A stretch of DNA of 38,670 bases. Source: Fidelibacterota bacterium (GTDB lineage Bacteria > Fidelibacterota > UBA8477). A model generated the notes under the pieces. It was not told the DNA's origin, made no database searches, and saw only the letters and a program-made list of their open reading frames with translations. The position numbers and the translations under genes are program-made. Numbering within the stretch: position 1 is the stretch's first letter; each line of letters opens with the position of its first letter. This document shows, in pieces, positions 3,222 to 27,205 of this stretch. Where the stretch lies: NCBI GenBank assembly GCA_021734045.1, contig JAIPJR010000014.1:1-38670 (forward strand). Direction: 5' to 3'.

Positions 3222-3228
3222 AAGTGTT

Positions 3229-3927: not shown

Positions 3928-4080
3928 TATTCCACACATATTGAGCTGGGGCTTAAATTGTTACGGTGTGCTTGTTTCTTTACGGAACATTACACCCTAT
4001 ATTTTATTCAAGCCGCTGGAGCGGTGAGAAACTTGAAAATGATGAATTGTATGATGTACAGGATTGACAGAGGAATTTAA

Positions 4081-6549: not shown

Positions 6550-6617
6550 CTCAGAATTAATCCCGCTGTTTAGCCGACTGAATATCTGACGCAAACAGCC
6601 GATTACTTTTAAGTAAT

Positions 6618-6663
6618 ACGCCATATTAGCAGAGATGTGATATGATATCTGCTGATATGGCGT
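6618..6663. promoter_or_regulatory. Long inverted repeat between clpC and dnaK
   Basis: Two 19-base arms (6618-6636 and 6645-6663) are complementary, with 17 Watson-Crick pairs and two wobble mismatches, separated by an 8-base loop. The arms contain ACGCCATAT and AGCAGA blocks. It lies about 70 bases after the clpC stop and 160 bases before the dnaK start. It is AT-rich and is followed by only three T residues, so it is not a classical intrinsic terminator. It does not match the CIRCE element (TTAGCACTC and its complement) that controls many dnaK operons. It could be a weak terminator or mRNA-stabilising hairpin for clpC, or an operator for dnaK; the sequence alone does not decide. Confidence 0.6.
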
Positions 6664-6826
6664 TTAATATGTGGTGGCACAGGCTTTGAGACTATGAGGT
6701 ATGCTGGACAGTCCGGTCAGTTTGGCCGGTGAATGTTTGAAAAGAAAATAGTGAAATGAACCGTTATAAGTGTGGAATTGTTTGAAAAGCATTTTGATGG
6801 TAGTGGAAACAAAGGAGTGAAGTATT

Positions 6827-12790: not shown

Positions 12791-14647
12791 TTGGCGCATT
12801 TTAGATATCTCGTGCTTTGCCTGCTCATGCTGGTGCCGCTTGCCGGGTGGACCCAGGAAGCCTTTATTTCTGAAGGTGCGGAGATTCGGTCCATCACGTT
12901 CAGTGGTAATGAGAGCATCCGGAAAGCGGATTTGAGAGACCAGCTCTCGATACATACGCGACTCTTCAAACGCTGGATCCGACGTGGTTCACCATATAAT
13001 GTCCGGCAAATCATCCGGAATAAATTGGTCCTCTCCAATTACTACCGCCAATTCGGGTATCTGGATATCACGGTTCGCGATTCCATCATACCTGTCTCAG
13101 CGGATGTGATTGATATTGCATTCATCATCCATGAGGGAAAACAGTATTATCTGAACAATTTCGCTATCACCGGGAATGAAGTCATTCCTACCTCGCGATA
13201 CCTGGAGGAATTGAAGCTCAAAGCCAACATTCCCTTCAGTCGGTACGAAATACAGAATGGGCTTCGCAGGATTATTCGCCGCTATGAAACCATGGGTTAC
13301 CCCGGTGTAATAATCCAAGACAGCGTGGCGATTGGTGATTCCGTGGATTTTTACCTGCAGGTTAATGAAGGTGCGCTGACCTACTTCGGTAATATCCAAG
13401 TTCCTGAGTTGGAGGGTATTGATGATCGTGTGGTGCGCCGGGAAGTAGTGGTTGAGCCGGGTGAAGTCTATAATATTGAGTTGATTGAAGAGTCACAGCG
13501 GCGCCTGTTTGAAACGGGCCTATTTAATGGCGTGAGTATTCGACCGACCAAAATTGATCCACTGACAAATCGTGTGGATTTATCAGTGCAGTTAATTGTG
13601 AGCAATTTTCGAGCAGTGGATTTTGAGTTCGGTCTGAAGCAGGAAGCCAGCGCGGAATATGCAGACCCATTGCTTAATCTGAAGATGGGAGGGAGTTGGC
13701 AACATAAGAATATCGCCGGAGCGGGTCGTCGTTTTCAGGTGAAAATGTCTGCCAGTACGCGATTTCCTGAAATCTACCAGCCGCAGACTTTTCGCAGTGA
13801 TTTGCTTTACACCATTCCCTGGTTGTTGGATTTTAGAACTCCCACCACAATCAACCCCTATTATGACTACAAAGATTGGTCAGAATGGCATGGTGCCGGT
13901 GCGTATCATTGGCGCTATGGCGTTCAGGTGACCACGTTGTATCGCTGGTTTCGCATTGTTCAGGCTCAGGGTCGGTTGGAATGGAGTAAGTTGAAAACCA
14001 GCGTGGTGACCAGTAAGGAAACTGGGATTACGGAGCAGCGCTCCTATCGTTTGCTGATACGCTGGGACAACAGGAATAATTTTTTCTCACCGTCTTCCGG
14101 ATACCTCATTGAGCTGACACCCAAATTAGCCGGGACGTTCCTGGGGGGCAGTCACCATTTTACCCAGGTCGAGGCCTCTTACAGTATCTACCATCGTCTA
14201 TTTCGGAATGTGGTGGGAGCAGGGCGAATTGTCAGTGGAATCACCCACATCATGCCCCAAGACACCAGTGGTGTGGCGCCGGTGGACCAGCGCTTCTATC
14301 TGGGTGGTAACACATCGGTGCGCGGTTATCGCAATCAGATGTTAGGTCCCACACTTTTGGATGGGGGGAATTTGGTACCCCAGGGTGGGAATTTTGAACT
14401 GTTCGGGAATTTTGAAGTGCGTTTCCCCATCTATGGTTTCCTTGGCGGCGAGGTTTTTCTGGATTGGGGCAATTTGTGGACGGAACCAGAGTATGCCAAT
14501 CTGACTGATATTAAGTTTGCATCTGGATTTGGCATCACCTTTGCGACCCCTATAGGGCCGGCCAGGGTCGATTTTGCCCGGCCTTTGAATGATAGTAATT
14601 ATGGCAGAGAATGGAACATTCATGTCGCCATTTCTCATGCCTTTTAA
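12791..14647 (+). CDS. tamA: TamA-like Omp85/BamA-family outer-membrane protein
   Basis: This 618-residue outer-membrane protein has a signal peptide (CLLMLVPLAGWTQ core), three consecutive POTRA-like domains (about residues 30-115, 116-190 and 190-270), and a C-terminal 16-strand Omp85-type barrel. The conserved Omp85 loop motif is present as GGNTSVRGYRNQ (residue ~505), and the chain ends in phenylalanine (SHAF), the usual barrel signal. Three POTRA domains and a TamB-like gene just upstream favour TamA over BamA, which usually has five. The start is TTG; an ATG at codon 13 would remove most of the signal peptide. Its role is insertion of proteins into the outer membrane together with the TamB-like protein. 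A divergent BamA-type protein is the alternative. Confidence 0.85.
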   Translation: MAHFRYLVLCLLMLVPLAGWTQEAFISEGAEIRSITFSGNESIRKADLRDQLSIHTRLFKRWIRRGSPYNVRQIIRNKLVLSNYYRQFGYLDITVRDSIIPVSADVIDIAFIIHEGKQYYLNNFAITGNEVIPTSRYLEELKLKANIPFSRYEIQNGLRRIIRRYETMGYPGVIIQDSVAIGDSVDFYLQVNEGALTYFGNIQVPELEGIDDRVVRREVVVEPGEVYNIELIEESQRRLFETGLFNGVSIRPTKIDPLTNRVDLSVQLIVSNFRAVDFEFGLKQEASAEYADPLLNLKMGGSWQHKNIAGAGRRFQVKMSASTRFPEIYQPQTFRSDLLYTIPWLLDFRTPTTINPYYDYKDWSEWHGAGAYHWRYGVQVTTLYRWFRIVQAQGRLEWSKLKTSVVTSKETGITEQRSYRLLIRWDNRNNFFSPSSGYLIELTPKLAGTFLGGSHHFTQVEASYSIYHRLFRNVVGAGRIVSGITHIMPQDTSGVAPVDQRFYLGGNTSVRGYRNQMLGPTLLDGGNLVPQGGNFELFGNFEVRFPIYGFLGGEVFLDWGNLWTEPEYANLTDIKFASGFGITFATPIGPARVDFARPLNDSNYGREWNIHVAISHAF

Positions 14648-14665: not shown

Positions 14666-17299
14666 ATGTTGGATTTTAATCGACTGACATATAAAAGTCA
14701 GGAGGCACTTCAGAAAAGTGTTTCCCTGGCACAATCACTGAATCACCAGGTCGTAGAAATCGACCATTTTATCGCGGTGTTATTGCGTGAGGAAGATAGC
14801 CTGCTAAATGCCATCGTGCGTAAGCTGGGTGTGAATAAATCTGATTTGGTGCAGGAAGTAGAATATAATCTTTCACGGTTACCGAAGGTGACCGGGGGTG
14901 GTGTGGGACAAACCGGCATCAGTCCGGAATTCAATCGCATTCTGGATTTGGCACAGACTGAAATGGCCACGCTTAAAGATGAGTATGTGAGCATCGAACA
15001 CATCTTATTGGCGGCATTCCAGGAGGGGAAAACCACCACAATCGGGTCCCTGAAGCGGATTGGTCTGAGCCGGGAGCGGTTACTGGAGTTGCTCAAATCA
15101 GTTCGTGGGTCCCAACGGGTTACAGATCAAAACCCGGAAGAAAAATACCAGGCGTTGGATCGCTATACCCGGGACCTGACAAAACTGGCGCGCCGGGGAA
15201 AGCTGGATCCCATCATTGGCCGGGATGAGGAAATCCGCCGCGTACTACAGGTTCTCAGTCGTCGCACCAAAAACAATCCGGTCTTGATTGGTGAACCTGG
15301 TGTGGGAAAAACCGCAATTGCTGAGGGAATTGCTTTGCGCATCATTAATCAGGATGTGCCGGAAGGCATGAAATCGAAACGCTTATTGGCACTAGATATG
15401 GGTGCGCTCATCGCCGGAGCGAAGTTCAGGGGTGAGTTTGAAGATCGGCTGAAGGCAGTTTTAAAAGAAATTGAAACCGCGGAAGGCTCGGTCATCCTGT
15501 TTATTGATGAATTACACACGGTTATTGGTGCCGGGGCGGCCGAAGGTGCCATGGATGCCTCCAATCTATTGAAACCAGCATTAGCTCGTGGCGATTTGCG
15601 GGCTATTGGTGCTACCACCTTAGACGAATACCGGAAACATATTGAGAAAGACGCGGCATTAGAGCGACGCTTCCAACCGGTTCTGGTAGAACCGCCTACG
15701 GTGGAGGATACCATCTCTATTTTACGCGGGTTAAAAGAGCGGTATGAAATTCACCATGGTGTGAAAATCAGAGATTCCGCGTTAGTGGCTGCGGCAGAAC
15801 TTTCAGATCGCTACATTTCAGACCGATTCCTGCCGGATAAAGCCATCGATCTCATGGATGAAGCGGCCAGCCGTTTACGATTGGTGATTGATTCATTACC
15901 CGAAGAATTGGATGAGGATGAACGCAGAATCCGGCAGCTTGAAATTGAGATTCGCGCGTTGAAAAAGGAGAGCGACCCGGAGGCCAAGAAGCGCCTGAAA
16001 GCGGTGGAGAAGGAGCTCTCTGACCTGCATGAGCAATCAGATTCGATGCGTTCACACTGGAATCTGGAAAAAGAGCTGCTTAAGGAAATTCAAGGACTGA
16101 AAAAGCAGATTGATGATACCCGCACTGAGCTGGAACGGGCAGAGCGGCAGGGGGACTTTGACAGAGCTGCCGAATTGAAACACGGTACCCTGGTTCGACT
16201 GCAACAGGAATTGGAAGCGAAAAGTGCGTCACTCAGTGGCGATGGACAGACACATCGGATGTTGCGCGAAGAAGTTACGGCCAACGATATTGCAGAGATT
16301 GTCTCCCGCTGGACCCATATTCCCATCACCAAATTAATGGAAACAGAGCGAGAGAAGTTACTCCACATAGAAGATCGTTTGCACGAGCGGGTAGTTGGAC
16401 AGGATCATGCGATCCAGGTTGTTTCCAACGCCATTCGCCGCAGTCGGGCGGGTTTTGCTGATGAACAGCGGCCCATGGGGAGCTTCATTTTTATCGGTAG
16501 TACCGGTGTTGGGAAAACCGAGTTGGCCAAAGCCTTGGCAGAGTTTCTCTTTGATGATGAGAATGCCATGGTGCGTATTGACATGAGTGAATACATGGAG
16601 AAGCACTCGGTAGCACGACTAATCGGTGCGCCACCTGGCTATGTAGGTTATGAGGAAGGTGGTCAGCTTACCGAATCGGTTCGGCGGAAGCCGTATGCTG
16701 TGGTTCTTTTGGATGAAATTGAGAAGGCCCATCCCGAAATATTTAATGTGCTGCTCCAGGTATTGGATGATGGTCGCCTGACGGATGCCCGTGGGAAGAC
16801 GGTGAATTTCAGAAACACCATTATCATCATGACGTCAAACCTGGGTTCCGATGTCATTGCCCGACAACTGGAAGAAAAACATGGTGACATCTCCGAATCT
16901 GAAATTACAGACTTGGAAAATGCTGTTCTCCAGTTGATGCGTCGGACTTTGCGACCGGAATTTCTGAATCGCATTGATGATGTTGTGGTGTTCAAACCTT
17001 TGAGTCAGAGCCAAATTGGTGAAATCGTACGGATTCAGTTTCGCCAGTTGGTGAACCGATTCAGGGCTCAGGGCGTTGTGGCGGAGTTGTCAGAAGCTGC
17101 TATCGCGCAACTTGCGCAGGAAGGGTTTGATCCCATGTATGGCGCCAGACCGTTGAAACGCGCGCTGCAACGGCATGTGGTTGACCGGGTCGCAACAGCA
17201 TTTTTAAAGGGCGAGATTGAACCGGGAACTGCAGTAATTATCGACTACGATAATGGTTATACGCTCAAAATCACCGAACACCGGAAAGAGTCAGTGTAA
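14666..17299 (+). CDS. clpB: ATP-dependent chaperone ClpB
   Basis: This 877-residue Hsp100 disaggregase rescues aggregated proteins together with DnaK. The Clp N-domain lies at about residues 1-145, with KVTGGGVGQ in the linker. AAA module 1 has Walker A GEPGVGKT at 209-216. The long coiled-coil middle domain, about residues 400-540, distinguishes ClpB from ClpC. AAA module 2 has Walker A GSTGVGKT at 611-618, with serine where the family usually has proline, and the GYVGYEEGG pore loop at about 655. The chain ends with the D2-small domain. No ClpP-binding IGF/L loop was recognised. The ATG has GATGGGGGTG upstream and follows the TamA-like gene by 18 bases, so it may be co-transcribed with the envelope genes. 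DnaK, its usual partner, is 6 kb upstream. Confidence 0.94.
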
Positions 17300-17463
17300 G
17301 CCAGAATTTTCCCGGGAACTTCACAATTGAAATGAAAGTAGAACGCTTGCTCTGATGAGGGAAAAATTGTGATAAAGGTTGTGATGTCCCATAGTAAAAT
17401 CAATATTTCGCGCACACAAAAAAGCGGACTACGCATCGCATATTAATAGGAGATGGATTCATT

Positions 17464-18183
17464 ATGCTGAAAAAGGGTATGATTGTTTTGTTGGGGGGAA
17501 TCTTGCTCATTAGCTGTGGGAAAAAATCTTACACTGAATTAATGTCAATGGGCAATGAGTACATGGAAAAAAGTGAAATGGGTAAAGCACTGGAGGCTTA
17601 CCGTGAAGCGGTCTATGTAGCTGAGGAACCGGCACAGATTATCGCTGCAGCGGATAAACTGGGTGATATTTTTGTGCAGCATGTTCCCAATCCTGATAGT
17701 GCCGGGACCTATTACGCCATCATTCTTGATTATCCGGATGAGCTGAATGTGGAAACCCTGCGCGAATACACCAAATTAATTCACGAATCTGGAAATTATG
17801 GTGTCGCAGCCCGGGGATACGCCATGTGGCTGGAACGCTATAACGACAATCCGCTGGCACCCAGTATGGCGTATGATCTGGCTGAGCTTTACCACAAACA
17901 AATTCAGGATTTAATCCGGGCAGTGCAGCTATACGACCAGGTTGTAACCGATTATCCTGATTCACCTTTCGCACCAAAAGCGTTGTTTTCTGCCGGGTAT
18001 GTCTATGCCAATGACTTGAAAAACCTTGAGAAGGCCCGTGCGAAGTACGAGACGTTTCTCGCCTCTTATCCCAAACATGAAATGGTTCCTTCTGTCCAGT
18101 TTGAGTTGAGATATCTGGGCAAATCCATCGAAGAAATTCCGGAATTACAGCACCTGGTGGGCAGGAAAAAATCCAGTAGTTAA
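17464..18183 (+). CDS. TPR-containing lipoprotein
   Basis: This 239-residue protein has a lipoprotein signal peptide: KK, a hydrophobic core, and a lipobox ending LISC, with cysteine at about residue 18. Tetratricopeptide-like helix pairs follow, for example SYTELMSMGNEYMEKSE with GKALEAYREAV near residues 22-50, and KARAKYETFLASYPKHE near 192-208. Such repeats usually mediate protein-protein contacts, and here the protein would sit on a membrane facing the periplasm. A good AGGAG lies ten bases before the ATG. It lies 164 bases after clpB and about 66 bases before the moxR-like gene, so it may be the first gene of the next operon. BamD- or YbgF-like roles are possible but not shown. Confidence 0.8.
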   Translation: MLKKGMIVLLGGILLISCGKKSYTELMSMGNEYMEKSEMGKALEAYREAVYVAEEPAQIIAAADKLGDIFVQHVPNPDSAGTYYAIILDYPDELNVETLREYTKLIHESGNYGVAARGYAMWLERYNDNPLAPSMAYDLAELYHKQIQDLIRAVQLYDQVVTDYPDSPFAPKALFSAGYVYANDLKNLEKARAKYETFLASYPKHEMVPSVQFELRYLGKSIEEIPELQHLVGRKKSSS

Positions 18184-18249
18184 TTGATGGAGCGATGATT
18201 CATTAATCGTTGAAGTTGAAAATACAAACAGAGGGATTTGATACAGCGT

Positions 18250-19242
18250 ATGTCATTTGATCTGGCTCAGTTGAATGAAGAGATAAAGCGGGAAAGTCAA
18301 TTCATTGAAATCCTGGAAAGCGAAATCGGTAAAGTCATCGTTGGCCAACAATACCTGGTCCGTCGTCTATTGGTGGGACTTCTTGCCAACGGTCATATTT
18401 TACTGGAAGGGGTTCCCGGATTAGCCAAAACTTTGACCGTGCACACCCTTGCACAGCTGATTCATACCCATTTCCAGCGCATACAATTCACGCCTGATCT
18501 GCTTCCTGCCGATTTGCTGGGAACGCTGATCTATAATCAAAAAGATGGTGAATTCACCATTAAAAAGGGACCCCTGTTCAGCAACATTATCTTAGCGGAT
18601 GAGATTAACCGCTCACCCGCCAAAGTGCAGGCGGCTCTCCTGGAGGCAATGCAGGAGAGGCAAATCACCATAGGCGAAGAAACCTTCAAGCTGGAAGATC
18701 CTTTTCTTGTATTGGCAACGCAGAATCCAATCGAGCAGGAGGGCACGTACCCGCTTCCGGAGGCACAGGTAGACCGGTTCATGCTCAAGGTTAAAATCAA
18801 CTACCCCAACGAGAGTGAAGAGCTGGAAATCATCCGTCGTATGGCGCACCCGAAACCGAGCCTTGCACTGGAACCGGTCGTGAACCCGGACCAGATTCTA
18901 AAGGCACGCCAGGTGGTGGACAATATCTATATGGATGAAAAAATTGAGCGCTACATCGTGGATATCGTGTTTGCCACACGTAATCCTGAGAAATACGGTC
19001 TGGGTGAGCTGACTGACCTTATTCAGTTCGGCGCATCACCGCGTGCTTCCATTAATCTGGCAATGACGGCGAAGGCGCACGCCTTCATCAATCACCGCGG
19101 CTATGTCACCCCGGATGATATACGTGCCATGGGCATGGATGTGCTGCGCCATCGCGTTTTGGTGACCTACGAAGCTGAAGCTGAAAATATGACAAGTGAA
19201 GATATTATTCAGCGCGTGTTTGAAACAGTTGAAGTGCCATAA
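18250..19242 (+). CDS. MoxR-family AAA+ ATPase
   Basis: This is a MoxR-type AAA+ ATPase of about 330 residues. Members are thought to act as chaperone-like factors that mature or activate partner proteins, often with von Willebrand A-domain proteins encoded next door. Walker A is GVPGLAKT (residues 54-61), Walker B is IILADEINRSP, sensor 1 lies in LATQNPIEQEGTYPLPEAQ, and the C-terminal lid contains GASPRASI. I chose the ATG; a TTG four codons upstream is also possible, as the AGAGGG sits between ideal spacings for both. The DUF58 gene follows 91 bases later. This pairing is the classic MoxR-DUF58 arrangement. Confidence 0.92.
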   Translation: MSFDLAQLNEEIKRESQFIEILESEIGKVIVGQQYLVRRLLVGLLANGHILLEGVPGLAKTLTVHTLAQLIHTHFQRIQFTPDLLPADLLGTLIYNQKDGEFTIKKGPLFSNIILADEINRSPAKVQAALLEAMQERQITIGEETFKLEDPFLVLATQNPIEQEGTYPLPEAQVDRFMLKVKINYPNESEELEIIRRMAHPKPSLALEPVVNPDQILKARQVVDNIYMDEKIERYIVDIVFATRNPEKYGLGELTDLIQFGASPRASINLAMTAKAHAFINHRGYVTPDDIRAMGMDVLRHRVLVTYEAEAENMTSEDIIQRVFETVEVP

Positions 19243-19333
19243 GCCGGTTATGAATGTTTGTCCTGCTATTTTGTGAGATAGAATTTTCGATAATGTCCTG
19301 CAGCGGCGATTCACGAAGCGCTTCTGATTGAAC

Positions 19334-20212
19334 ATGATTTCAAAAGACATTCTGAAGAACATCCGCCGACTCGAATTTTCCACCCGGCACCTGGTGAATG
19401 AGGTGTTCGGTGGCGAATATCATTCGGTATTCAAAGGCCGGGGAATGGAGTTCGCGGAAGTTAGGGAATATCTGCCCGGTGATGACATTCGAACAATTGA
19501 TTGGAATGTGACAGCCCGGACCGGGAAACCGCATGTGAAATTGTTTGACGAAGAGCGGGAGCTCACGGTCATGTTGCTGGTGGATGCATCCGCTTCTGGA
19601 GCCTTCGGTAGTCGCGGTCGGATGAAACGGGAGGTGGCAGCAGAATTATCAGCGGTTTTGGCATTTTCAGCGATTAAAAATAATGATAAGGTGGGTGCGG
19701 TAGTATTTACAGATAAGGTGGAAAAATTCCTTCCACCGCACAAAGGGCGCCACCATGTACTGCATGTGATACGCGAATTATTATACCATGAACCACAGAG
19801 TAAAGGCACTGATATTGGTGCTGCCGTTGAGTTCATGTCCAGTGTGGTGCGGCGACGGGCTGTGGTCTTTTTAATTTCAGATTTTCTCACTTCCGGATTT
19901 GAAACACCGATTCGAATCGCTGCTCGCCGACATGATTTCATCACTTTACGACTGTTTGACCCGTTGGAAGCTACATTGCCCCGTACTGGTTTGATTCAGG
20001 TGCACGACGCGGAAACGGGCGAGATTGCCCTGATGGATACCGGCAACCCGCGCTTCCGTGAAGCCTATCAAAAAGCCAATCAACAGCGAGTCAGTTCATT
20101 GGAGAGTTTCTTCCGCAAACATCAATTGGATTACCTGGCACTGAATTCAACCGAGTCCTATGTGGAACCATTGGTGAAATTTTTTAAGGCGCGAGCCAAG
20201 AGGGTGCGCTGA
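19334..20212 (+). CDS. DUF58 domain-containing protein
   Basis: This protein of about 292 residues has the conserved DUF58 block VREYLPGDDIRTIDWNVTAR (about residues 43-62). A von Willebrand A-like fold follows, with a VDASASGAFGS metal-site-like motif near residue 87 and a LISDFLTSG strand near 185. DUF58 proteins are commonly encoded beside MoxR ATPases and are believed to be their substrates or partners; the biochemical function is unknown. No membrane segment is seen, so it is probably cytoplasmic. The ATG was chosen over a TTG two codons upstream. Its stop overlaps the next gene's ATG (TGATG), showing translational coupling. Confidence 0.9.
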   Translation: MISKDILKNIRRLEFSTRHLVNEVFGGEYHSVFKGRGMEFAEVREYLPGDDIRTIDWNVTARTGKPHVKLFDEERELTVMLLVDASASGAFGSRGRMKREVAAELSAVLAFSAIKNNDKVGAVVFTDKVEKFLPPHKGRHHVLHVIRELLYHEPQSKGTDIGAAVEFMSSVVRRRAVVFLISDFLTSGFETPIRIAARRHDFITLRLFDPLEATLPRTGLIQVHDAETGEIALMDTGNPRFREAYQKANQQRVSSLESFFRKHQLDYLALNSTESYVEPLVKFFKARAKRVR

Positions 20213-21228
20213 TGGCTGGGCGTGGACGCGCACAACTGAGCCGGACGTTCCAGGCTTTTACCCTCTGTTCTTTATACTCTCGACGCCTCCTGGTCTTCTT
20301 CCTGTTCATTCCATCGTTATTCGCCCAATCGTTACAGGTCAGCGTTGACTTGGATACCACTGACGGCACGCTGGGGGATGTGTTTCATGCTACCTGGCAG
20401 GTTCAGCACTCCCCAAATCAAGCGGTTCAGTTCCCTGTTTTGGATCAACGGGTAACCACATTTGAAATTCTGGAACAGAACCAGGGTGTGGAACAAGAAA
20501 ATATTACTGCCCTGCAACTGGCGGTGGCTGTATATGATTCCGTAGGCCCACACGATTTTCCGGATCTGAAAGCGACTGTCATTTCACCAGTCGATACACA
20601 GGTTATAAAACTGCCAGGATTTCGGGTGGAAATTCATTCCGTCCTCACAGCAGAGGACTCGACCTTTCATCCCATCAAACCGATTCATCCCGTTCGTTTA
20701 CCGTTCAATTGGTGGTACATCATTTATGGTGTCATCGCAGTTGTCACTATCTATTTGCTATACCGGTATTGGCCACGCAGGATAGGTAAAAATGAAGCAG
20801 GTAAGGAAAAAGTTGTCGTCATCCTGCCGGAGGAAGCACATGTGATAGCGTTGCGCGAATTAAATGAATTGCAGCGTTCCACACTGCTTGAAACGGGGGA
20901 TTTCAAAGCCTATTACTCCTGGCTAACTGAAATTGTGCGTCGATATTTCGAGAATCGCTTTCTAATTGATGCGTTGGAAATGACCACGACAGAGGTATTA
21001 CTGGCCTTGAAGAACGGTATTCTAGGGCCGGATCGGTTGCGGGATAGTGAAGAACTATTGACACAGGGAGATTTGGTCAAGTTCGCCAAATTTATCCCCA
21101 CATCTACACAAGCTGAAGCAGCATTAAAATTGGCCATCAACCTGGTGGAAACCACCAGGGTTCAGACCGAAACAACCATGAAAAAATCTGATGTTAAACA
21201 GCAAGCAGAAGTGGAGGACATATCGTGA
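20212..21228 (+). CDS. BatD/DUF4381-like membrane protein
   Basis: This 338-residue protein has a long basic N-terminus and a signal or anchor segment around residues 25-42 (RRLLVFFLFIPSLFAQ). A beta-rich periplasmic domain follows to about residue 165, then one membrane helix near 168-186 (WWYIIYGVIAVVTIYLLYRYW) and a cytoplasmic helical domain (ALRELNELQRSTLLETGDFKAYYSWLTEIVRRYFENRF). That arrangement resembles the BatD/DUF4381-type proteins that accompany MoxR and DUF58 proteins. It overlaps both neighbours: TGATG with the DUF58 gene and GTGA with the ABC ATPase gene. It would couple the cytoplasmic MoxR/DUF58 pair to the envelope. The name is by architecture and context only. Confidence 0.65.
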   Translation: MAGRGRAQLSRTFQAFTLCSLYSRRLLVFFLFIPSLFAQSLQVSVDLDTTDGTLGDVFHATWQVQHSPNQAVQFPVLDQRVTTFEILEQNQGVEQENITALQLAVAVYDSVGPHDFPDLKATVISPVDTQVIKLPGFRVEIHSVLTAEDSTFHPIKPIHPVRLPFNWWYIIYGVIAVVTIYLLYRYWPRRIGKNEAGKEKVVVILPEEAHVIALRELNELQRSTLLETGDFKAYYSWLTEIVRRYFENRFLIDALEMTTTEVLLALKNGILGPDRLRDSEELLTQGDLVKFAKFIPTSTQAEAALKLAINLVETTRVQTETTMKKSDVKQQAEVEDIS

Positions 21229-22166
21229 TTGAAGTCCAAAATGTGAGTAAGTCCTATGGACCGGTTCACGCGGTCAGGGATATCTCCTTTTCCGTGCAGA
21301 AAGGTGAAATACTGGGCTTTTTGGGACCCAATGGAGCTGGTAAAACCACAACCATGCGGATTCTATCCTGCTTTATGCCAGCCACGACCGGTACGGCCCG
21401 GGTAGCCGGATTTGATGTGTTTGAAAATGCAATGGAAGTGAAGAAACGCATTGGGTATTTGCCGGAAAATCCGCCCTTATACATGGAACAGACAGTGGAT
21501 GACTTCCTGCGGTTCGTTGCCGGGATAAAAGGTCTGTCTGGCCCGGATGTGAAATCCAAAATTGACCGAGCACTGGAACTCACAACGACGGTTGATGTGC
21601 GCCACCGGATTATTGGCAAGCTGTCCAAGGGTTTCCGGCAGCGAATCGGCTTGGCGCAAGCGCTGATCCATGAGCCGGAGGTATTAATTCTGGATGAGCC
21701 CACCGTGGGACTGGATCCGGCGCAGATTATTGAAGTGCGCGAATTGATTAAGGGTCTGGCTGGTGATCATACCATCATTTTATCCACCCATATTCTGCCG
21801 GAGGTTGAACAGACCTGCGACCGAGTGGTCATTATCAACAAAGGGCAGGTCGTCGCCGAGGATACAACCACCGGATTGACGCAGAAACTCCAGGGAGCAT
21901 CCACGGTGAAACTGGAGGTAGAAGGTGATCCTGAAGCCATTAAAACTACCCTGCGAAGTGTTGACGGTGTAGTGAATGTGACCCATACCGCCGGCGCCTA
22001 TATGATTGAATCCACCGCTGAGAAAGACATTCGCAGTGAGCTGGCTAGAGTCATTGTAACCAATAAATTCAAATTATTTGGCCTGCAGAGCGTGGGCATG
22101 AATCTGGAAGAAATATTCCTTCAATTGGTGAAATCCGAAACTGGCGCGGGGAGGGTGGAAGCATGA
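21225..22166 (+). CDS. GldA-like ABC transporter ATP-binding protein
   Basis: This 313-residue ATPase belongs to the ABC-2 exporter class (GldA, NosF, CcmA-like). Walker A is GPNGAGKTT at residues 34-42, the signature region is LSKGFRQRIGLAQAL, Walker B is VLILDEPTVGLDP, and the H-loop is LSTHILPE. A C-terminal extension of about 90 residues (after residue 220) is typical of this group. It starts with GTG overlapping the previous stop (GTGA) and ends overlapping the permease ATG (ATGA). Together with the next three genes it resembles the GldAFG transporter; in Bacteroidetes that complex is needed for gliding, but related sets are widespread in non-gliding bacteria. The substrate is unknown. 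Confidence 0.9.
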   Translation: MIEVQNVSKSYGPVHAVRDISFSVQKGEILGFLGPNGAGKTTTMRILSCFMPATTGTARVAGFDVFENAMEVKKRIGYLPENPPLYMEQTVDDFLRFVAGIKGLSGPDVKSKIDRALELTTTVDVRHRIIGKLSKGFRQRIGLAQALIHEPEVLILDEPTVGLDPAQIIEVRELIKGLAGDHTIILSTHILPEVEQTCDRVVIINKGQVVAEDTTTGLTQKLQGASTVKLEVEGDPEAIKTTLRSVDGVVNVTHTAGAYMIESTAEKDIRSELARVIVTNKFKLFGLQSVGMNLEEIFLQLVKSETGAGRVEA

Positions 22167-22945
22167 AAAACACATGGACTATCTTTCGTCGTGAATTGAA
22201 CGCTTATTTTGTGTCACCCATGGCATATGTGATTCTGGTATTCTTTTTTGCCCTGGCCGCAGTGTTCTTTTACCTGTTTCTGGCTTCATTTCTTCAAAAT
22301 CAGCAGCTGATTCAGATGCAGGCTCAGCAGGGTGGGCGGTTTCAACCGGTAAATGTAAACCTTATGTTGATACGCGGGTTGTTACTGAATTTATCCGTAA
22401 TCTCCCTCTTCATGATACCCATGATTACCATGCGCTCGTTTTCAGAGGATAAGCACAACGGTACCATGGAGTTATTACTCACATCACCACTCACCAATTG
22501 GCAAATCATTTTGGGAAAATATTTTGCTGCGCTCACCCTTTACGCCACCATGATTGGCACTACCTTGCTATTTATGGTAATGCTGTTTTTCTATGGTGAT
22601 CCTGAGCTCCTGCCCATTCTCAGTGGCTATCTCGGATTGCTGCTGTTTGGTGCGGCTCTGGTAGGCATTGGGATGTTTATCAGCAGTTTAACCGAGAATC
22701 AATTGGTATCAGCGCTGGTAACCTTCGTGGTAATGCTGGTGCTCTGGCTGGTGGGCGCTTTGGGAAGCTTTAACAGTACCAACTGGTCACAGCAGCTCCT
22801 CCAATACCTTTCCACAATCGAGCATTTGGATGATTTTGTGAAGGGTGTTTTTGATACCCGGCATGTGGTCTATTATCTGTCAGCTGCATTTCTGGGACTC
22901 TTTTTGACCTATCAATCGGTTGAATCAACACGGTGGAGGGGTTAA
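22163..22945 (+). CDS. GldF-like ABC-2 type permease
   Basis: This 260-residue integral membrane protein has about six hydrophobic helices. The first, near residues 15-40, follows FRRELNAYFVSPMAYV, a sequence typical of the ABC-2/GldF family. Other helices lie near 70-92, 110-135, 143-170, 175-200 and 225-255. The motif TMRSFSEDKHNGTMELLLTSPL at about 90-110 is the conserved cytoplasmic loop of this family. It overlaps the ATPase gene by four bases and is followed after two bases by the GldG-like gene, with tight translational coupling. It should form the membrane channel of the transporter. Confidence 0.9.
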   Translation: MKNTWTIFRRELNAYFVSPMAYVILVFFFALAAVFFYLFLASFLQNQQLIQMQAQQGGRFQPVNVNLMLIRGLLLNLSVISLFMIPMITMRSFSEDKHNGTMELLLTSPLTNWQIILGKYFAALTLYATMIGTTLLFMVMLFFYGDPELLPILSGYLGLLLFGAALVGIGMFISSLTENQLVSALVTFVVMLVLWLVGALGSFNSTNWSQQLLQYLSTIEHLDDFVKGVFDTRHVVYYLSAAFLGLFLTYQSVESTRWRG

Positions 22946-22947
22946 TC

Positions 22948-24486
22948 ATGCAGAAAATATGGAAAATCTTACTCTGGGTTGGTGTTATCGGCATGTTAGC
23001 CGGATTGGTACTCTACAGCATTACCGGATTATGGCGCTGGTACTCAGTCACTACGGAAATCGTGGGATTGGTATTGGTGATAGGGACGATTATCGCGAAT
23101 TTCAGAACCGTCGTGCAGGCATTGGGACGGCGATCCACCAAATACGGTATCAGTATGGTCATTGGTGGTCTGTTCGTTCTGGGCATTCTGGCTGCGGTAA
23201 ATTTTTTCTTCTACCGCAATAACTACCGATCGGACTGGACGCAGCAAAAGACATTTTCGTTATCCGATCAAACCACAAAAATCCTCAAGAATCTGGGAAA
23301 AGATGTTCAAGTTTATGCCTTTTGGAATGACAATGACAATGCTCGGAGCCAGATTCAGGAGCTGTTTGTAGAATACAACAACATCTCACCCAGATTTCAG
23401 TATGAATTTCTGGATGTGGATAAAAATGCGGACCTGGCGCAGCAGGTGTATGAAATTGAACAGTACGGGACGATTGTCTTCAAAACTGAAACCAAAGAGG
23501 AACGCTGGGAGCCAGCACCTCAATTTGGGGGCGCGCGTCCACCCCAGGAGGAGGACATCACCAATACGCTGATTAAGGTGCTGCGGGATGAACAAAAGAC
23601 TGTTTATTTTATAACCGGGCATGGCGAAGTGGATTTGGAGGACGCCCAATCCCGGGATGGCTATGGGGTGGCAAAAACCGCACTGGAAAAGCAGTTTTAT
23701 AAAGTTTCTTCTCTGGATTTGATGTCCATGGATGCGGTTCCCCAGGATGCGTCTGCCGTCGTCATTGCCGGCGCCGATAAACCTTATCTGGCGCATGAGA
23801 CGGCAGCACTTACGCGCTATCTGAAGGCGGGTGGCGGTGTTGTGGTTTTGCTGGATCCGGCACCCAAACCGGATTTCCGGGCTTTCCTCACTCCATTTGA
23901 CATTACACCGGACAATGATATTGTGGTTGATCCTTCACTTGAAAATCGTCTGTTTGGTGGCAATCCGGGTACGCCGATGGTGCGTCAATACGGAGAGCAT
24001 GCCATAACGAAAGATTTTCCTTATGCCACTATTTTCCATATGACCCGTTCGCTGCAGGTCAGTGGATCGGCAACAGCTTTGGCGATTTCCGGTGGCAGTG
24101 CCTGGGGGGAGACCGATCTGGCGAACTTGCAACAGGGCGTTTCCTTCGGGGAGAATGATATTCCAGGACCCCTGAATCTTGCAGCGGTTACGAACGTACC
24201 CAGTGATTCGACCGGAGGGAAGGCGGGCCGACTGGTCGTGGTGGGGGATTCAGACTTCGCCACCAACATCCAATTCAACACCCAGGGGAATGGGAATTTT
24301 TTCACAAATATTGTCTCCTGGCTTGCGCAAGATGATGATCTTATCTCTGTATCGTCTAAACAGATGGAAAATCGCCCGTTAAATATGACAGCCGGTGATC
24401 TGCGTATCGTCTTATATGTCATTATCCTGTTCGGTCTGTTAATCATGGGCCAGGGGGTACGTGTCTATCTCAAACGACGGAGGTAA
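22948..24486 (+). CDS. GldG-like ABC transporter auxiliary protein
   Basis: This protein of about 512 residues has several N-terminal membrane segments (near residues 7-25, 32-50 and 65-90), a large extracytoplasmic domain and a C-terminal membrane helix near 485-505. The YFITGHGEVDLEDAQSRDGYGVAKTALE segment (about 218-245) is characteristic of the GldG/ABC-transporter-auxiliary family, and the fold resembles a glutamine-amidotransferase-like core. The ATG was chosen because a GGAGGGG lies six bases upstream; an in-frame GTG further upstream falls inside the permease gene. In Bacteroidetes, GldG is the third component of the gliding-associated ABC transporter. The function outside gliding bacteria is unclear. 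Confidence 0.85.
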   Translation: MQKIWKILLWVGVIGMLAGLVLYSITGLWRWYSVTTEIVGLVLVIGTIIANFRTVVQALGRRSTKYGISMVIGGLFVLGILAAVNFFFYRNNYRSDWTQQKTFSLSDQTTKILKNLGKDVQVYAFWNDNDNARSQIQELFVEYNNISPRFQYEFLDVDKNADLAQQVYEIEQYGTIVFKTETKEERWEPAPQFGGARPPQEEDITNTLIKVLRDEQKTVYFITGHGEVDLEDAQSRDGYGVAKTALEKQFYKVSSLDLMSMDAVPQDASAVVIAGADKPYLAHETAALTRYLKAGGGVVVLLDPAPKPDFRAFLTPFDITPDNDIVVDPSLENRLFGGNPGTPMVRQYGEHAITKDFPYATIFHMTRSLQVSGSATALAISGGSAWGETDLANLQQGVSFGENDIPGPLNLAAVTNVPSDSTGGKAGRLVVVGDSDFATNIQFNTQGNGNFFTNIVSWLAQDDDLISVSSKQMENRPLNMTAGDLRIVLYVIILFGLLIMGQGVRVYLKRRR

Positions 24487-24492
24487 TCGCGT

Positions 24493-25833
24493 ATGAAACC
24501 AAAACATTTAATGCTTCTATTCGCTGCATTCGTGGTGATCGCAGGTTTCGTATATTTCTACGAATATAAAGGTGGTCTGGAAAGGGAGGCGGCATCAGAA
24601 TGGGCCAGTAAGACCTTTAAAATTGCCAATCCGCAGGACATTGTCGGTTTAACGCTGCAGACACCGCAGGGAACGATTACCGCAGTCCGTGAAAATGGAG
24701 AATGGCAAATCACTGCCCCCTTCCAAGTTGCTGCCGAGGATGGTCAGTGGGATGGTATTGTGAATGCAATCATGCGGTCCACCATTAACCGTGAAATCTC
24801 ATCAGAACTAAGGGATTTAAGTAAATATGGATTAAATATCCCACGAGCCACCGTCACGTTGATGCTGGCGGATGGTTCGGAAAAATCCTTTCTGGTGGGT
24901 GCGGAGAGCAAAGCCAGCAAGGGTGGGGTGATGACCTTCGTGAAATGGGCTGATTCCAGCAGGGTGGTGACGACTGAGAACACATTATTCACCACATTGG
25001 ATAAGTCCCTCTTCGACCTGCGCGATAAATCGATTTTCCACATTGAAAAGGAACCCCGCATCGCGAAGATAGAATTGGAAAAGATGGGACAAAAGGTTGT
25101 GCTGGAAAAACTCGCCAACCGCTGGATGATTACGGAACCGGTGAATCTGGTTGCCATGCCCAGCGCGGTGAACAGTTTAATCTCCGGTATTAAAGGATTA
25201 AAGGCGCGCGATTTTGTGGTGGAAGAGCCACAATCTTTAAAACCCTACGGCATGGAAGATCCGGTTGGACGGGCAGTCTTTGTTTACGATGACAGTACCA
25301 CCAGCATGGAACTGCGGTTGGGTGATAAACGCTCGGCCAATGAACTGTATGTACACTGGCTGGGAAAACATCCTGTGGCGATTATAGACACGACCCAGGC
25401 CAAACAGTTTGTGCGCACGGCATTTGATTTTCAGGATAAAAAGCTGAAGCCTTTTGATATAAAACTGGCGGACCGTATTACCATGACCGGTGATATGACG
25501 CTGGACATTTTCAAACGTGATACACTGGGGTGGTTTAGTGTCGCCGGTGACACGCTCAAAACCGACAAGGTGGAGAGTTTGTTACGAAATCTGAGTAATT
25601 TACAGGCAGACGCGGTGGGTGACTATTATGCAGAAAACCTGGCGCTGTACGGGCTGCAGGGTCCGCGTAGAAAAATCATCGTCATGGTGGGCGACACGGT
25701 ATTATCCGCCATCTGGATCGGCACGAAACTGGAGAATGAGTGTTTTGCAAAATGGTCCGAAAGCCCGCATGTCTATAAGCTACGTAATTGGCGCATTGGT
25801 AACCTTGAAAAAACAGTTGATGATTTAAAGTAG
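24493..25833 (+). CDS. DUF4340 domain-containing protein
   Basis: This 446-residue protein has an N-terminal membrane anchor (about residues 5-24, LMLLFAAFVVIAGFVYFYEY) and an extracytoplasmic region with repeated modules. These contain patterns such as DIVGLTLQTPQGTITAVRENGEWQIT, an FDLRDKSIF motif near 175 and later MEDPVGRAVF, typical of DUF4340. DUF4340 proteins are commonly encoded directly after GldG-like proteins and are presumed to belong to the same complex; their role is unknown. A GGAGG lies nine bases before the ATG, and the GldG-like gene ends six bases upstream. It is the last gene of the operon, followed by an AT-rich gap. Confidence 0.85.
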   Translation: MKPKHLMLLFAAFVVIAGFVYFYEYKGGLEREAASEWASKTFKIANPQDIVGLTLQTPQGTITAVRENGEWQITAPFQVAAEDGQWDGIVNAIMRSTINREISSELRDLSKYGLNIPRATVTLMLADGSEKSFLVGAESKASKGGVMTFVKWADSSRVVTTENTLFTTLDKSLFDLRDKSIFHIEKEPRIAKIELEKMGQKVVLEKLANRWMITEPVNLVAMPSAVNSLISGIKGLKARDFVVEEPQSLKPYGMEDPVGRAVFVYDDSTTSMELRLGDKRSANELYVHWLGKHPVAIIDTTQAKQFVRTAFDFQDKKLKPFDIKLADRITMTGDMTLDIFKRDTLGWFSVAGDTLKTDKVESLLRNLSNLQADAVGDYYAENLALYGLQGPRRKIIVMVGDTVLSAIWIGTKLENECFAKWSESPHVYKLRNWRIGNLEKTVDDLK

Positions 25834-25909
25834 TGCTAATTTTCATGAATATTAAAACTATTTCACCTACAACTTAACTATGTAAATCTTTGTGATTAGA
25901 CTTGAAATA

Positions 25910-25939
25910 TTGATTGCTTTATGTACAGTGTTATTTAAA
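25910..25939 (+). promoter_or_regulatory. Possible promoter for the small basic protein gene
   Basis: The 160-base gap between the DUF4340 gene and the next gene is strikingly AT-rich. Within it, TTGATT at 25910 and TTTAAA at 25934 are 18 bases apart, resembling a weak -35/-10 pair; other pairs in this AT-rich gap are equally possible. The downstream gene has a separate strong AAAGGAGTG ribosome site and its own terminator, which makes a dedicated promoter likely. Confidence 0.25.
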
Positions 25940-25993
25940 ATTACTACGGTATGTGTAAAATGCTATTAAGTGATACAATGAAAGGAGTGACAA

Positions 25994-26347
25994 ATGGGTT
26001 TTGAACCGTATAAGCCAAAACGCGGTGGTCGTGGAAAAGGTTTAGCAATTAGTTTTAGTCCTTCGGGTCGCATTGGTTTTAGTCGTGGTTTGTATGATGC
26101 TCATTTGAGCAAAGCCAATCATGTGGAACTATTTTATGACCGGGCACGGAACAAGGTCGGTATTAAGCCGGTGAAGCGTAATTCCGTCAGCTCAATCAAA
26201 CTGCCTGCCGTTGGCGAAAAGAAACCCTGTGCTATTATGGGCAAAGGTTTTTACAAAGCATTCGGCCTTTCTTTTGACAAACTGAAACGGGTTACGCCTG
26301 TCTTTGATGAAGAGAAAAAAATGCTGATTGCTGACTTAAACAGCTAA
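25994..26347 (+). CDS. Small basic protein, possibly AbrB-barrel-like, function unknown
   Basis: This 117-residue, lysine- and arginine-rich protein begins with a basic patch (PYKPKRGGRGKG). It contains SFSPSGRIGFSRG (about 21-33), then VELFYDRARNKVGIKPV (about 45-61), and ends with an MGKGFYKAFGLSFDK segment near 80-94. The pattern of glycine-rich strand, ELFYD strand, GIKPV strand and GFYKAFG helix recalls small uncharacterised proteins in diverse bacteria with a swapped-hairpin AbrB-like barrel. That link is from memory and not tested. A strong AAAGGAGTGA precedes the ATG. The gene stands alone between an AT-rich leader and a bidirectional terminator. A nucleic-acid-binding role would fit the charge, but nothing here proves it. 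Confidence 0.65.
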   Translation: MGFEPYKPKRGGRGKGLAISFSPSGRIGFSRGLYDAHLSKANHVELFYDRARNKVGIKPVKRNSVSSIKLPAVGEKKPCAIMGKGFYKAFGLSFDKLKRVTPVFDEEKKMLIADLNS

Positions 26348-26368
26348 GTTAAAAGCACATTTGAACAC

Positions 26369-26403
26369 AAAAAAAGGAGCATCGTTTTGATGCTCCTTTT
26401 TTT
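26369..26403. terminator. Bidirectional rho-independent terminator
   Basis: A symmetrical hairpin has arms AAAAAAAGGAGCATC and GATGCTCCTTTTTTT around the loop GTTTT. It lies 21 bases after the small basic protein gene and about 25 bases beyond the stop of the convergent dehydrogenase gene. Because the A-run and T-run flank the stem symmetrically, it can terminate transcription from both sides. Confidence 0.92.
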
Positions 26404-26428
26404 ATAACTTTAAATAGACGCTCCCGAA

Positions 26429-27205
26429 TTATTCTTTTTTCGCAACGATTGTTGCTGAAGCCTGGGCAGTGGGGAAAATAATCATATCCGCAATTTGAAC
26501 ATGGGGTGGCCGGGTTGCGGCATACAAAATCGCATCTGCAATGTCATTTGCTACCAGTGGTTCATATCCCTGATAAACCTGGCTGGCTCGCTGAGCGTCT
26601 CCCCTGAATCGCACTTGGCTAAACTCCGTTTCCACCAATCCCGGAGAGATTGCGGTTACACGGACAGATGTACCAGCCAGATCCATGCGTGTGCTTTTCG
26701 TAATGGCATTCACGGCGTGTTTTGAGCCGCAATAAATACTCCCACCGGGATAAGCTTCATGCCCAGCGATTGAGGAAATATTAATCACATGACCTCGCTG
26801 GCGGGAAACCATACCCGGAACAATTGCCTGAGTGAGCCAGAGGACACCTTTCACATTCACATCGATTACCGTATTGATATCCTCCGGATTATTTTCATGG
26901 GCTTTATTCACACCTAATGCCAAACCGGCGTTATTCACTAAAATGTCAATATTTGTGAATGATTCCGGTAGATCGTTTAGAACTGATTCAATTGATTCCA
27001 AACGACTCACATCAATGGCAGCATGATGGACATGGATATGATATTTTTGCGTCAATTCCTGTGCTAATATCTGGAGACGATCTACCCGACGCGCTGTGAG
27101 GATAAGGTGACAACCGGCAGCGGCAAATTGACGGGCAGTCGCCTGACCTATACCTGCACTGGCTCCCGTGATGAACACTATCTGATCTTTAATGTCGTAA
27201 CCCAT
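26429..27205 (-). CDS. Short-chain dehydrogenase/reductase (YdfG-like)
   Basis: This 258-residue NAD(P)-dependent oxidoreductase has a classical SDR fold. The cofactor motif TGASAGIG lies at residues 13-20, NNAG at 91-94, and the catalytic residues are Ser145, Tyr158 and Lys162 in the YCGSK motif. The ARR following the second strand suggests NADP preference. Overall it resembles the YdfG/3-hydroxy acid dehydrogenase subgroup, but the natural substrate cannot be read from sequence. It is the last gene of a minus-strand set, 13 bases after the symporter gene, and ends close to the bidirectional terminator. Its relation to the thiamine gene two genes upstream may be incidental. Confidence 0.9.
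   Translation of the reverse strand: MGYDIKDQIVFITGASAGIGQATARQFAAAGCHLILTARRVDRLQILAQELTQKYHIHVHHAAIDVSRLESIESVLNDLPESFTNIDILVNNAGLALGVNKAHENNPEDINTVIDVNVKGVLWLTQAIVPGMVSRQRGHVINISSIAGHEAYPGGSIYCGSKHAVNAITKSTRMDLAGTSVRVTAISPGLVETEFSQVRFRGDAQRASQVYQGYEPLVANDIADAILYAATRPPHVQIADMIIFPTAQASATIVAKKE

Follow-up and report, generated by a model that had tools for sequence, protein, structure and literature searches.

The DNA analysed here is a stretch of 38,670 nucleotides from a Fidelibacterota bacterium (contig JAIPJR010000014.1 of assembly GCA_021734045.1), hereafter the window, which corresponds to contig C82 of the 119 contigs of a 2.54-Mb genome. Open reading frames (ORFs) and profile matches place seven genes in series on its forward strand (18250-25833), encoding a MoxR-type AAA+ ATPase, a DUF58/VWA protein, a membrane protein of 338 amino acids (aa), a GldA-like ABC ATPase, a GldF-like permease, a GldG-like protein and a DUF4340 protein. 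The third of them, with Ig-like and DUF4381-like domains, is called BatDl in this work. The MoxR-DUF58-BatDl triple is the set of genes that opens the classical Bat (aerotolerance) operon, here called its head, and from the comparison of sequences we tentatively propose that this Bat-type MoxR/VWA machine and the GldA-GldF-GldG-DUF4340 cassette may well serve one envelope process. Both systems were found linked in three lineages, each with a gene order of its own, namely the phylum of the window, the phylum of genome G065 (records titled Gemmatimonadetes) and the anammox Brocadiaceae, and we favor a functional partnership because the linkage was made or kept in each of them. MoxR-VWA systems are widespread but have few known clients, and what the Bat proteins do is a matter of dispute; the linkage points to the GldA-F-G-DUF4340 transporter as a concrete candidate partner, and thus each of these two orphan systems gives a handle on the other.

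The initial annotation had described a nearly contiguous seven-gene run with one-base and four-base overlaps across the BatD-like/ABC boundary, and the coordinates confirm it. The DUF58 and BatDl genes overlap by 1 base, BatDl and GldA by 4 bases, and GldA and GldF by 4 bases; 2 bases lie between GldF and GldG if the latter begins at 22948, and a 91-base gap lies between MoxR and DUF58. The 4-base overlap of BatDl and GldA is retained in 23 of the 30 measured loci of the window's phylum. A consensus scan of positions 17200-26500 yielded eight terminator-like sites, fewer than the shuffle mean of 10.5, and the two located on the forward strand each fall within a gene of the block. The MoxR gene starts at the ATG at 18250 (the mechanical ORF begins at the TTG at 18238), the GldA-like gene starts with a GTG (21225), and the ATG at 22948, preceded by GGAGGGG, is a better start for GldG than the listed GTG at 22933.

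The assignment of the triple to the Bat operon is based on the recurrence of its gene order across 80 named DUF58 loci, the best 80 of the 596 stretches matched in a scan with one genome per species (84,980 species). MoxR is located upstream of DUF58 in 69 of these loci, BatDl after DUF58 in 74, and BatA or BatB in 68, with flanks of up to 9 kb (66 of the 80 have at least 5 kb downstream). The ORFs came from our own caller. The BatA-E names were given to the genes of locus L113 by order and size, and the BatA-E hidden Markov models (HMMs) were built from these genes; the other HMMs were built from relatives of the window. In the genome of the window, the Bat genes are split in two places: BatA and BatB do not stand directly behind the triple, where the GldA-like gene is found instead, and BatA, BatB, a 267-aa protein at the BatC position, BatD and BatE lie side by side on contig C77 (L037), which has a PF07584 (BatA N-terminal) match at 19507-19728. 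The BatD of this locus has 609 aa and scores 606 bits with the BatD model, BatE scores 243 bits with its own model, and the 267-aa protein matches the BatE model with 99.6 bits. No Bat-type MoxR or DUF58 was labeled in the 15 kb inspected at L037. The label "BatD-like" given in the initial annotation to the third gene of the block cannot be maintained in view of this separate BatD, and the identification of the 338-aa protein as BatD was ruled out: besides the 609-aa BatD on C77, DUF4381 is commoner than BatD among its orthologues (nine and four, respectively, of 15 orthologues at E ≤ 0.1). Another MoxR-DUF58 pair, of a different type, is located on contig C79 (L036), where an unlabeled protein of 974 aa is encoded between the two genes.

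The linkage was analyzed in 60 genomes of the window's phylum, its own genome counted, on the basis of the position of GldG with respect to the type-A DUF58; the surroundings of the core or the cassette were read in 48 of the 60 plus G020, and 11 were judged by match coordinates alone. The transporter is linked in 35 genomes, lies elsewhere in 11 (G026, G031, G036, G041, G043, G047, G052, G054, G056, G057, and G058), was not found in 13 and is undecided in one (G024, 65% complete). GldG and the type-A DUF58 are about 4 kb apart on the same contig and strand in 33 of the 35 linked genomes; in G020 and G046, the halves join across contig ends, and in G004, G016, and G033, three of the 33, GldG or DUF58 is truncated at a contig end. 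In the one-contig genome G036, the cassette is about 0.42 Mb away from the type-A DUF58. The 13 genomes without a cassette gave no GldG match over the cut-off and no DUF4340 match, eight of them being at least 90% complete (lowest, 63%). By family code, the transporter is linked in seven families, separate in six, solely absent in one (f7) and undecided in one, and f2, f6, and f11 include genomes without a cassette too. A universal linkage in the phylum is thus ruled out by the 11 detached cassettes and the 13 genomes where none was found. Two loci, L050 (G046) and L086 (G039), carry two cassettes from different ancient clades in tandem behind the Bat head. In G013, a genome of the same order, a short AAA_3 match of 45 positions (C2:119997-120131) falls in an open frame of 24,111 aa, a giant gene.

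The 44 core loci with a type-A DUF58 (window excluded) all contain MoxR and BatDl; upstream, a TPR protein was found in 42, Omp85 in 39 and TamB in 36, several of the loci without TamB being truncated at contig ends. The exceptions with long flanks are G052, without Omp85, and the f7 genomes G027 and G045, without TPR and without Omp85. The steadier neighbors of the triple in this phylum are, therefore, the TPR lipoprotein, Omp85, and TamB. The BatA label was absent in all 44 loci, within at most 9.5 kb on the same strand, some flanks being short. As to the rest of the phylum's Bat genes, PF07584 is matched in 59 of the 60 genomes, in 56 of them over the cut-off, with longer proteins matching too; many relatives have a frame of 570-715 aa with the BatA N-terminal domain at its own locus, apart from the BatA-sized frames.

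The second lineage is the phylum of G065, the genome of locus L101, where DUF4340 is present in all 64 genomes. This phylum, perhaps the Latescibacterota, is not that of L097, L116, and L134, also titled Gemmatimonad-, since G061, G074, and G080 are not among its 64 genomes. We inspected 40 regions from 39 of the 64 genomes, picked from the listed DUF4340 hits, five of them without GldG. Among the 35 regions that hold GldG, 31 have DUF58, BatDl, or BatA within 7.5 kb on the same strand, and in 23 regions MoxR, DUF58, BatDl, and BatA all lie inside this distance. The usual order is MoxR-DUF58-GldA-GldF-GldG-DUF4340-BatDl-BatA-BatB-BatC-like-BatD-BatE, and L098 and L101 are alike. The unlinked regions are L196, L197, L198 (on a 4-kb contig), and L218; no type-A DUF58 was found in the genomes of L196 and L197 (best, 171 bits vs. 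279-287 in relatives with type A), and in the genome of L218 a MoxR-DUF58 pair runs off the end of a different contig (L240). Seven of the 31 linked regions lack MoxR and DUF58 on the spot. In five of these seven (G117, G121, G123, G126, and G127), TPR-MoxR-DUF58-GldA-GldF stand at one site and GldG-DUF4340-BatDl-BatA-BatB at another, and G126 has both sites on a single contig at a distance of about 0.5 Mb; the break of the operon in these five genomes lies within the transporter, between GldF and GldG, and not at the junction of the transporter with Bat. Some loci of this phylum show other peculiarities: L200 (9403-12621) and similar loci encode a GldG of about 1070-1120 aa, which in L200 is a head-to-tail double GldG (model matches 12-496 and 510-956), and L205, L212, L214, and L215 encode an additional DUF4340 protein (about 445 aa) that has no Gld gene with it and is followed by a TPR-labeled protein of about 1100 aa.

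The third lineage is the family of the Brocadiaceae genome G060, with DUF4340 in 16 of its 17 genomes. All 16 regions (L181, L182, and L245-L258; L252 starts inside DUF4340) show the order GldA-GldF-GldG-DUF4340-MoxR on the same strand, with an HtrA-like gene (L182), a 465-aa gene (L256), or a 105-aa ORF (L246) between DUF4340 and MoxR, and nothing called there in the other 13. The eight Brocadiaceae MoxR proteins included in a tree fall inside the Bat MoxR clade, beside a canonical Bat MoxR of Planctomycetes (support 95), and are set apart from other MoxR types (99), whose rows, named by us, served as the outgroup; the MoxR of the window is also placed in the Bat clade. The Bat operon of G060 (L096, with its full upstream flank) lacks MoxR at its head, and the sole other strong MoxR match of this genome belongs to another type. 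A further Bat operon of the Brocadiaceae was seen at L107, where the contig starts just ahead of DUF58. According to the part available of a study on Brocadiae, all its genomes encode BatA and BatD (PMC8862662). In the transcriptome of an anammox culture under hydrazine, MoxR, GldG, and ABC ATPase genes appear in the available text as down-regulated together (PMC12053348); the MoxR gene, however, has a locus tag remote from those of the GldG and ATPase genes and may be of any MoxR type, so this result is not used as evidence here.

Trees were also built to trace the origins of the linkage. The core tree (MoxR plus DUF58) contains 98 of the 123 usable loci plus two outgroup rows, part of the Bacteroidota and near-duplicates having been dropped; the window and its relatives contribute 38 rows, which together with L102, L114, L128, L159, and L165 (titled Neomarinimicrobiota or Marinimicrobia) form a group of 43 with support 88. 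This grouping points to the Neomarinimicrobiota as the phylum of the window (its NCBI label reads Fidelibacter-). The window's phylum and the second lineage are apart in the best tree, and a single clade of both gave p = 0.099 in the approximately unbiased (AU) test. The cassette tree (GldA plus GldF plus GldG) contains 65 of 84 cassettes (four dropped by length, 13 as near-duplicates and two as poor rows) and shows two deep clades, with attached members of the window's phylum in both. One of them contains 14 rows of this phylum with a long DUF4340. All 14 are attached, two of them as the rear cassette of a tandem (in one case by joining contig ends), and their sister group consists of 20 second-lineage rows, of which 17 are attached (support 92); elsewhere in the same clade there are two attached rows of the second lineage (L217 and L230) and six stand-alone rows. 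In the other clade, 16 rows of the window's phylum, eight attached and eight separate, are grouped with seven cassettes that stand alone in other phyla. A single clade of all 30 cassettes of the window's phylum, a group named after seeing the tree, was rejected (AU p = 2e-57). Since the attached cassettes come from two deep clades, two kinds of transporter have become attached to the triple, in two events or else through an old tandem of both, still present in G039 and G046, with later losses.

To know how the cassette is arranged in other phyla, we considered the 31 genomes behind chosen loci, 23 of which have DUF4340. Taking 20 DUF4340 regions from 19 genomes (of the 21 not yet seen linked), mostly one region per genome although several genomes have more, all 20 turned out to be the GldA-GldF-GldG-DUF4340 cassette. 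The four genes are labeled in 16, and the GldF or GldG label is missing in four, three of which are probably GldF-GldG fusions judging by length. A Bat-type MoxR appears at L181 and L182, and a MoxR of another type at L190. Among the 80 named DUF58 loci, a same-strand GldG or DUF4340 was seen in the available flank (up to 9 kb) at just two, L098 and L101. Separation is, therefore, the rule outside a few lineages: unlinked halves, the situation that the initial annotation regarded as contrary to a joint function, prevail in most phyla sampled and not in the three lineages described above.

The MoxR protein (18250-19242, + strand, 330 aa) is of the Bat-type clade, matches AAA_3 (PF07726, E = 2.4e-65) and AAA_lid_2, and contains the Walker A (GVPGLAKT), Walker B (IILADEINR), and ATQNP motifs. 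The DUF58 protein (19334-20212, +, 292 aa; PF01882, E = 3.8e-83, and VWA_2) is predicted to be soluble, with zero transmembrane (TM) segments by hydropathy. It has a DxSxS metal ion-dependent adhesion site (MIDAS), and its residues D84, S86, S88, T159, and D183, which presumably form this site, are invariant across 15 orthologues. Both proteins together present the signature of a MoxR-VWA pair, i.e., Walker A and B in the former and DxSxS..T..D in the latter. BatDl (20212-21228, +) comprises a signal peptide, a periplasmic Ig-like domain, one TM segment, and a cytosolic helical DUF4381-like domain, and hits no Pfam family at the cut-off (DUF4381, E = 0.018). Its AlphaFold2 model (57 sequences; mean predicted local distance difference test [pLDDT] 85.9, predicted template modeling score 0.55) begins with a signal-peptide helix (12-31) and a beta sandwich (42-142), after which come a TM helix (residues 167-191) and the helical domain (residues 209-315). 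The sandwich has an Ig-like fold according to VIA-align (best Z 8.6, root mean square deviation 2.8, 100 residues aligned), with weak Ig-like matches by Foldseek alone. Hydropathy and model suggest that BatDl spans the inner membrane, with the Ig domain in the periplasm and the helical domain in the cytosol. A sequence search against solved structures gave no match for BatDl or DUF58.

The GldA-like ATPase (21225-22166, +, 313 aa) contains the ABC motifs including the signature and scores 332.4 bits with TIGR03522 (cut-off 402.6), and the GldF-like ABC-2 permease (22163-22945, +, 260 aa, five TM-like peaks) matches PF12679 and PF12698 and scores 139.4 bits with TIGR03518 (cut-off 288.5). The GldG-like protein (22948-24486, +, 512 aa) matches PF09822 (E = 4.5e-20), DUF7088, and DUF4350 (E = 1.8e-9; 38.6 bits, over the cut-off of 30.4), and scores 64.1 bits with TIGR03521 (cut-off 389.85). 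Three N-terminal and one C-terminal TM-like segments flank its large ABC_transp_aux/DUF4350 (GIFT-related) domain, which would be extracytoplasmic; the sequence search against solved structures returned only two short matches, to designed proteins. The DUF4340 protein (24493-25833, +, 446 aa) has an N-terminal anchor (TM-like peak at 5-23, a weak one at 395-413) and three similar beta-rich repeats, PF14238 matching in three stretches. Its AlphaFold2 model, from just three sequences (mean pLDDT 72.4), shows three runs of strands and helices; matches to solved structures had E = 0.19 or worse by sequence, and none above Z 5.6 by VIA-align of this low-depth model.

The window also contains genes that bear on the extent of the block. 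The initial annotation let it start at MoxR and, while the seven genes stand, the conserved unit starts further upstream with genes for a TamB-like protein (8889-12782, +; PF04357, E = 2.1e-24), an Omp85/BamA-TamA-like outer-membrane protein (12791-14647, +; PF01103 and POTRA), and a TPR lipoprotein (17464-18183, +; TPR_6, lipobox-like LISC; YbgF TIGR02795, 60.4 bits, below 90.1). Ahead of them (814-8770, +), there are genes for two FtsX/MacB-type permeases, an ABC ATPase, a ClpC-like protein, and DnaK, followed by TamB-TamA-ClpB; we read the permeases as LolC/E-like and the ATPase as LolD-like, and the whole as an envelope and proteostasis block ahead of the operon. Right behind DUF4340 lies a 117-aa ORF (25994-26347, +) without a Pfam family, which, among the loci first compared, also occurs at L038 and L039, both from the same genus. 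An open-ended ORF of at least 2150 aa (32220-38670, +) with Filamin, HYDIN-Ig, and CopC-like matches probably encodes a large surface or secreted protein. An Rfam search gave no match.

With these elements, a putative mechanism can be outlined. The block is the head of a split Bat operon, the cassette occupying the place held by BatA-E in other phyla. Cytosolic MoxR hexamers and DUF58 would act on an inner-membrane complex at the expense of ATP, remodeling, assembling, or loading it, by analogy with known MoxR-VWA pairs, which act on membrane enzymes or at the membrane. BatDl may be the adaptor connecting the chaperone to the membrane through its cytosolic helical and periplasmic Ig-like domains, a natural link because, in its model, the protein extends to either side of the inner membrane. 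The ABC motor (GldA/GldF), together with the large periplasmic GldG and DUF4340, could be one partner or client, and BatA-E another, and we can only guess that the transported substrate is an envelope lipid or a surface protein. A narrower version, in which Bat is the assembly or activation machine for ABC complexes of the GldA-F-G-DUF4340 type, with MoxR-DUF58 acting via BatDl on GldF/GldG/DUF4340 and the linkage re-created with whichever of the two ancient transporter paralogues a bacterium has, seems to us rather unlikely.

Several observations weigh against a shared envelope process. In 24 of the 60 relatives, the type-A DUF58 has no adjacent transporter (11 elsewhere, 13 none found), and 78 of the 80 named loci have no transporter within the available flank of up to 9 kb; therefore, the transporter is not the sole client, and at most it is one client of MoxR-DUF58. 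The suggestion of the initial annotation that MoxR acts on the ABC complex or on the GldG/DUF4340 parts is thus partly supported: the conserved or re-made linkage favors a functional partnership, but the triple often stands without the transporter. Likewise, in 18 of the 20 regions from other phyla no Bat-type gene lies within 7.5 kb of the cassette, and a frame of 322-378 aa matches PF07584 in 11 of the 13 cassette-less genomes (over the cut-off in six), so BatA-like genes persist without the cassette and Bat does not require the transporter. Moreover, the trees are quick ones, an old tandem of both cassette types may be the origin of the attachments in the window's phylum, and the linkage in the first two lineages was possibly inherited from a common source. 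It could also be that two independent envelope systems are merely co-expressed in one long envelope/proteostasis block without acting on each other, as suggested by the envelope and chaperone genes in which the upstream block is rich (LolC/E- and LolD-like, ClpC, DnaK, TamB, TamA, ClpB, and TPR) and by the same 24 relatives in which the triple, or its DUF58, has no adjacent cassette. We consider this quite possible although doubtful, because the two other lineages are linked in other orders without a TamB/Omp85 label alongside, and among the 80 named loci TamB/Omp85 lie upstream in just four, whose titles all read Neomarinimicrobiota or Marinimicrobia.

The restriction of these neighbors to the window's phylum also makes it improbable that the triple serves outer-membrane assembly by TamA/TamB together with the TPR lipoprotein, the ABC cassette being a later passenger. 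The frequency of the three labels upstream of MoxR in the 44 core loci, their persistence where the cassette is detached or absent, and the four named loci with TamB/Omp85 agree with such a role; however, the association can be explained by one ancestral neighborhood, and an Omp85 label is missing from the roughly 9 kb upstream in G052, G027, and G045. Finally, the cassette might be the GldA-F-G transporter of gliding or of the type IX secretion system (T9SS), with MoxR aiding either process. This appears very improbable, since all three curated cut-offs are missed and the DUF4340-bearing cassette is a stand-alone one in genomes whose titles name Planctomycetes, Armatimonadetes, and Archangium, to our knowledge phyla not known for T9SS. 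In its favor, GldA, GldF, and GldG are the best curated models, and a gldG mutant of Flavobacterium psychrophilum is described, in the part of the report available, as lowered in T9SS output (PMC5682007). A shared envelope process thus continues to be the reading that we put forward.

Compared with the Bat operon (MoxR, DUF58, third gene, BatA, BatB, BatC, BatD, and BatE), for which background is given in part of PMC11834572, the window has the same first three genes and its genome has BatA-E, but the operon is contiguous there and split here, with GldA-F-G-DUF4340 after BatDl. In Leptospira biflexa, a protective (aerotolerance) role of Bat was not supported, as far as the available text goes (PMC3557215). 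The ATPase, permease, and auxiliary protein have the same top families as the GldA, GldF, and GldG of gliding Bacteroidota, whereas the cassette of the window scores below the curated cut-offs, is followed by DUF4340, and sits behind MoxR-DUF58-BatDl. The stand-alone GldA-GldF-GldG-DUF4340 cassette of other phyla has the same genes, mostly without a MoxR neighbor. NorQ-NorD and RavA-ViaA also pair a MoxR AAA+ protein with a VWA partner, but their clients differ; NorQ and RavA represent other MoxR subfamilies, and DUF58 is a VWA family different from NorD and ViaA. In the portions of these papers available, nitric oxide reductase receives its metal through the action of NorQD (PMC13036017), RavA-ViaA is located at the inner membrane (PMC9489729), and a DUF4340 domain is reported as essential in Verrucomicrobium spinosum (PMC12283558). 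In the open-license literature, subscription journals being outside this scope, we recognized no paper joining the Bat operon with GldA-F-G or DUF4340. The nearest prior statement of the MoxR-GldG-like idea, judging from the accessible part of the source, is a prediction made in 2015 for archaea, where arCOG01314 (DUF4350, GldG-like), the MoxR of COG0714 and a vWA protein would form a secretion or membrane remodeling complex (PMC5898192). As in the window, MoxR, vWA, an Ig-like membrane protein, and a GldG/DUF4350-like protein are encoded together there, but that part of the text does not mention GldA, GldF, or DUF4340, and it describes the archaeal vWA as likely secreted, unlike the DUF58 of the window, which has no TM segment; BatA and BatB, possible fits for this component, lie elsewhere in the genome.

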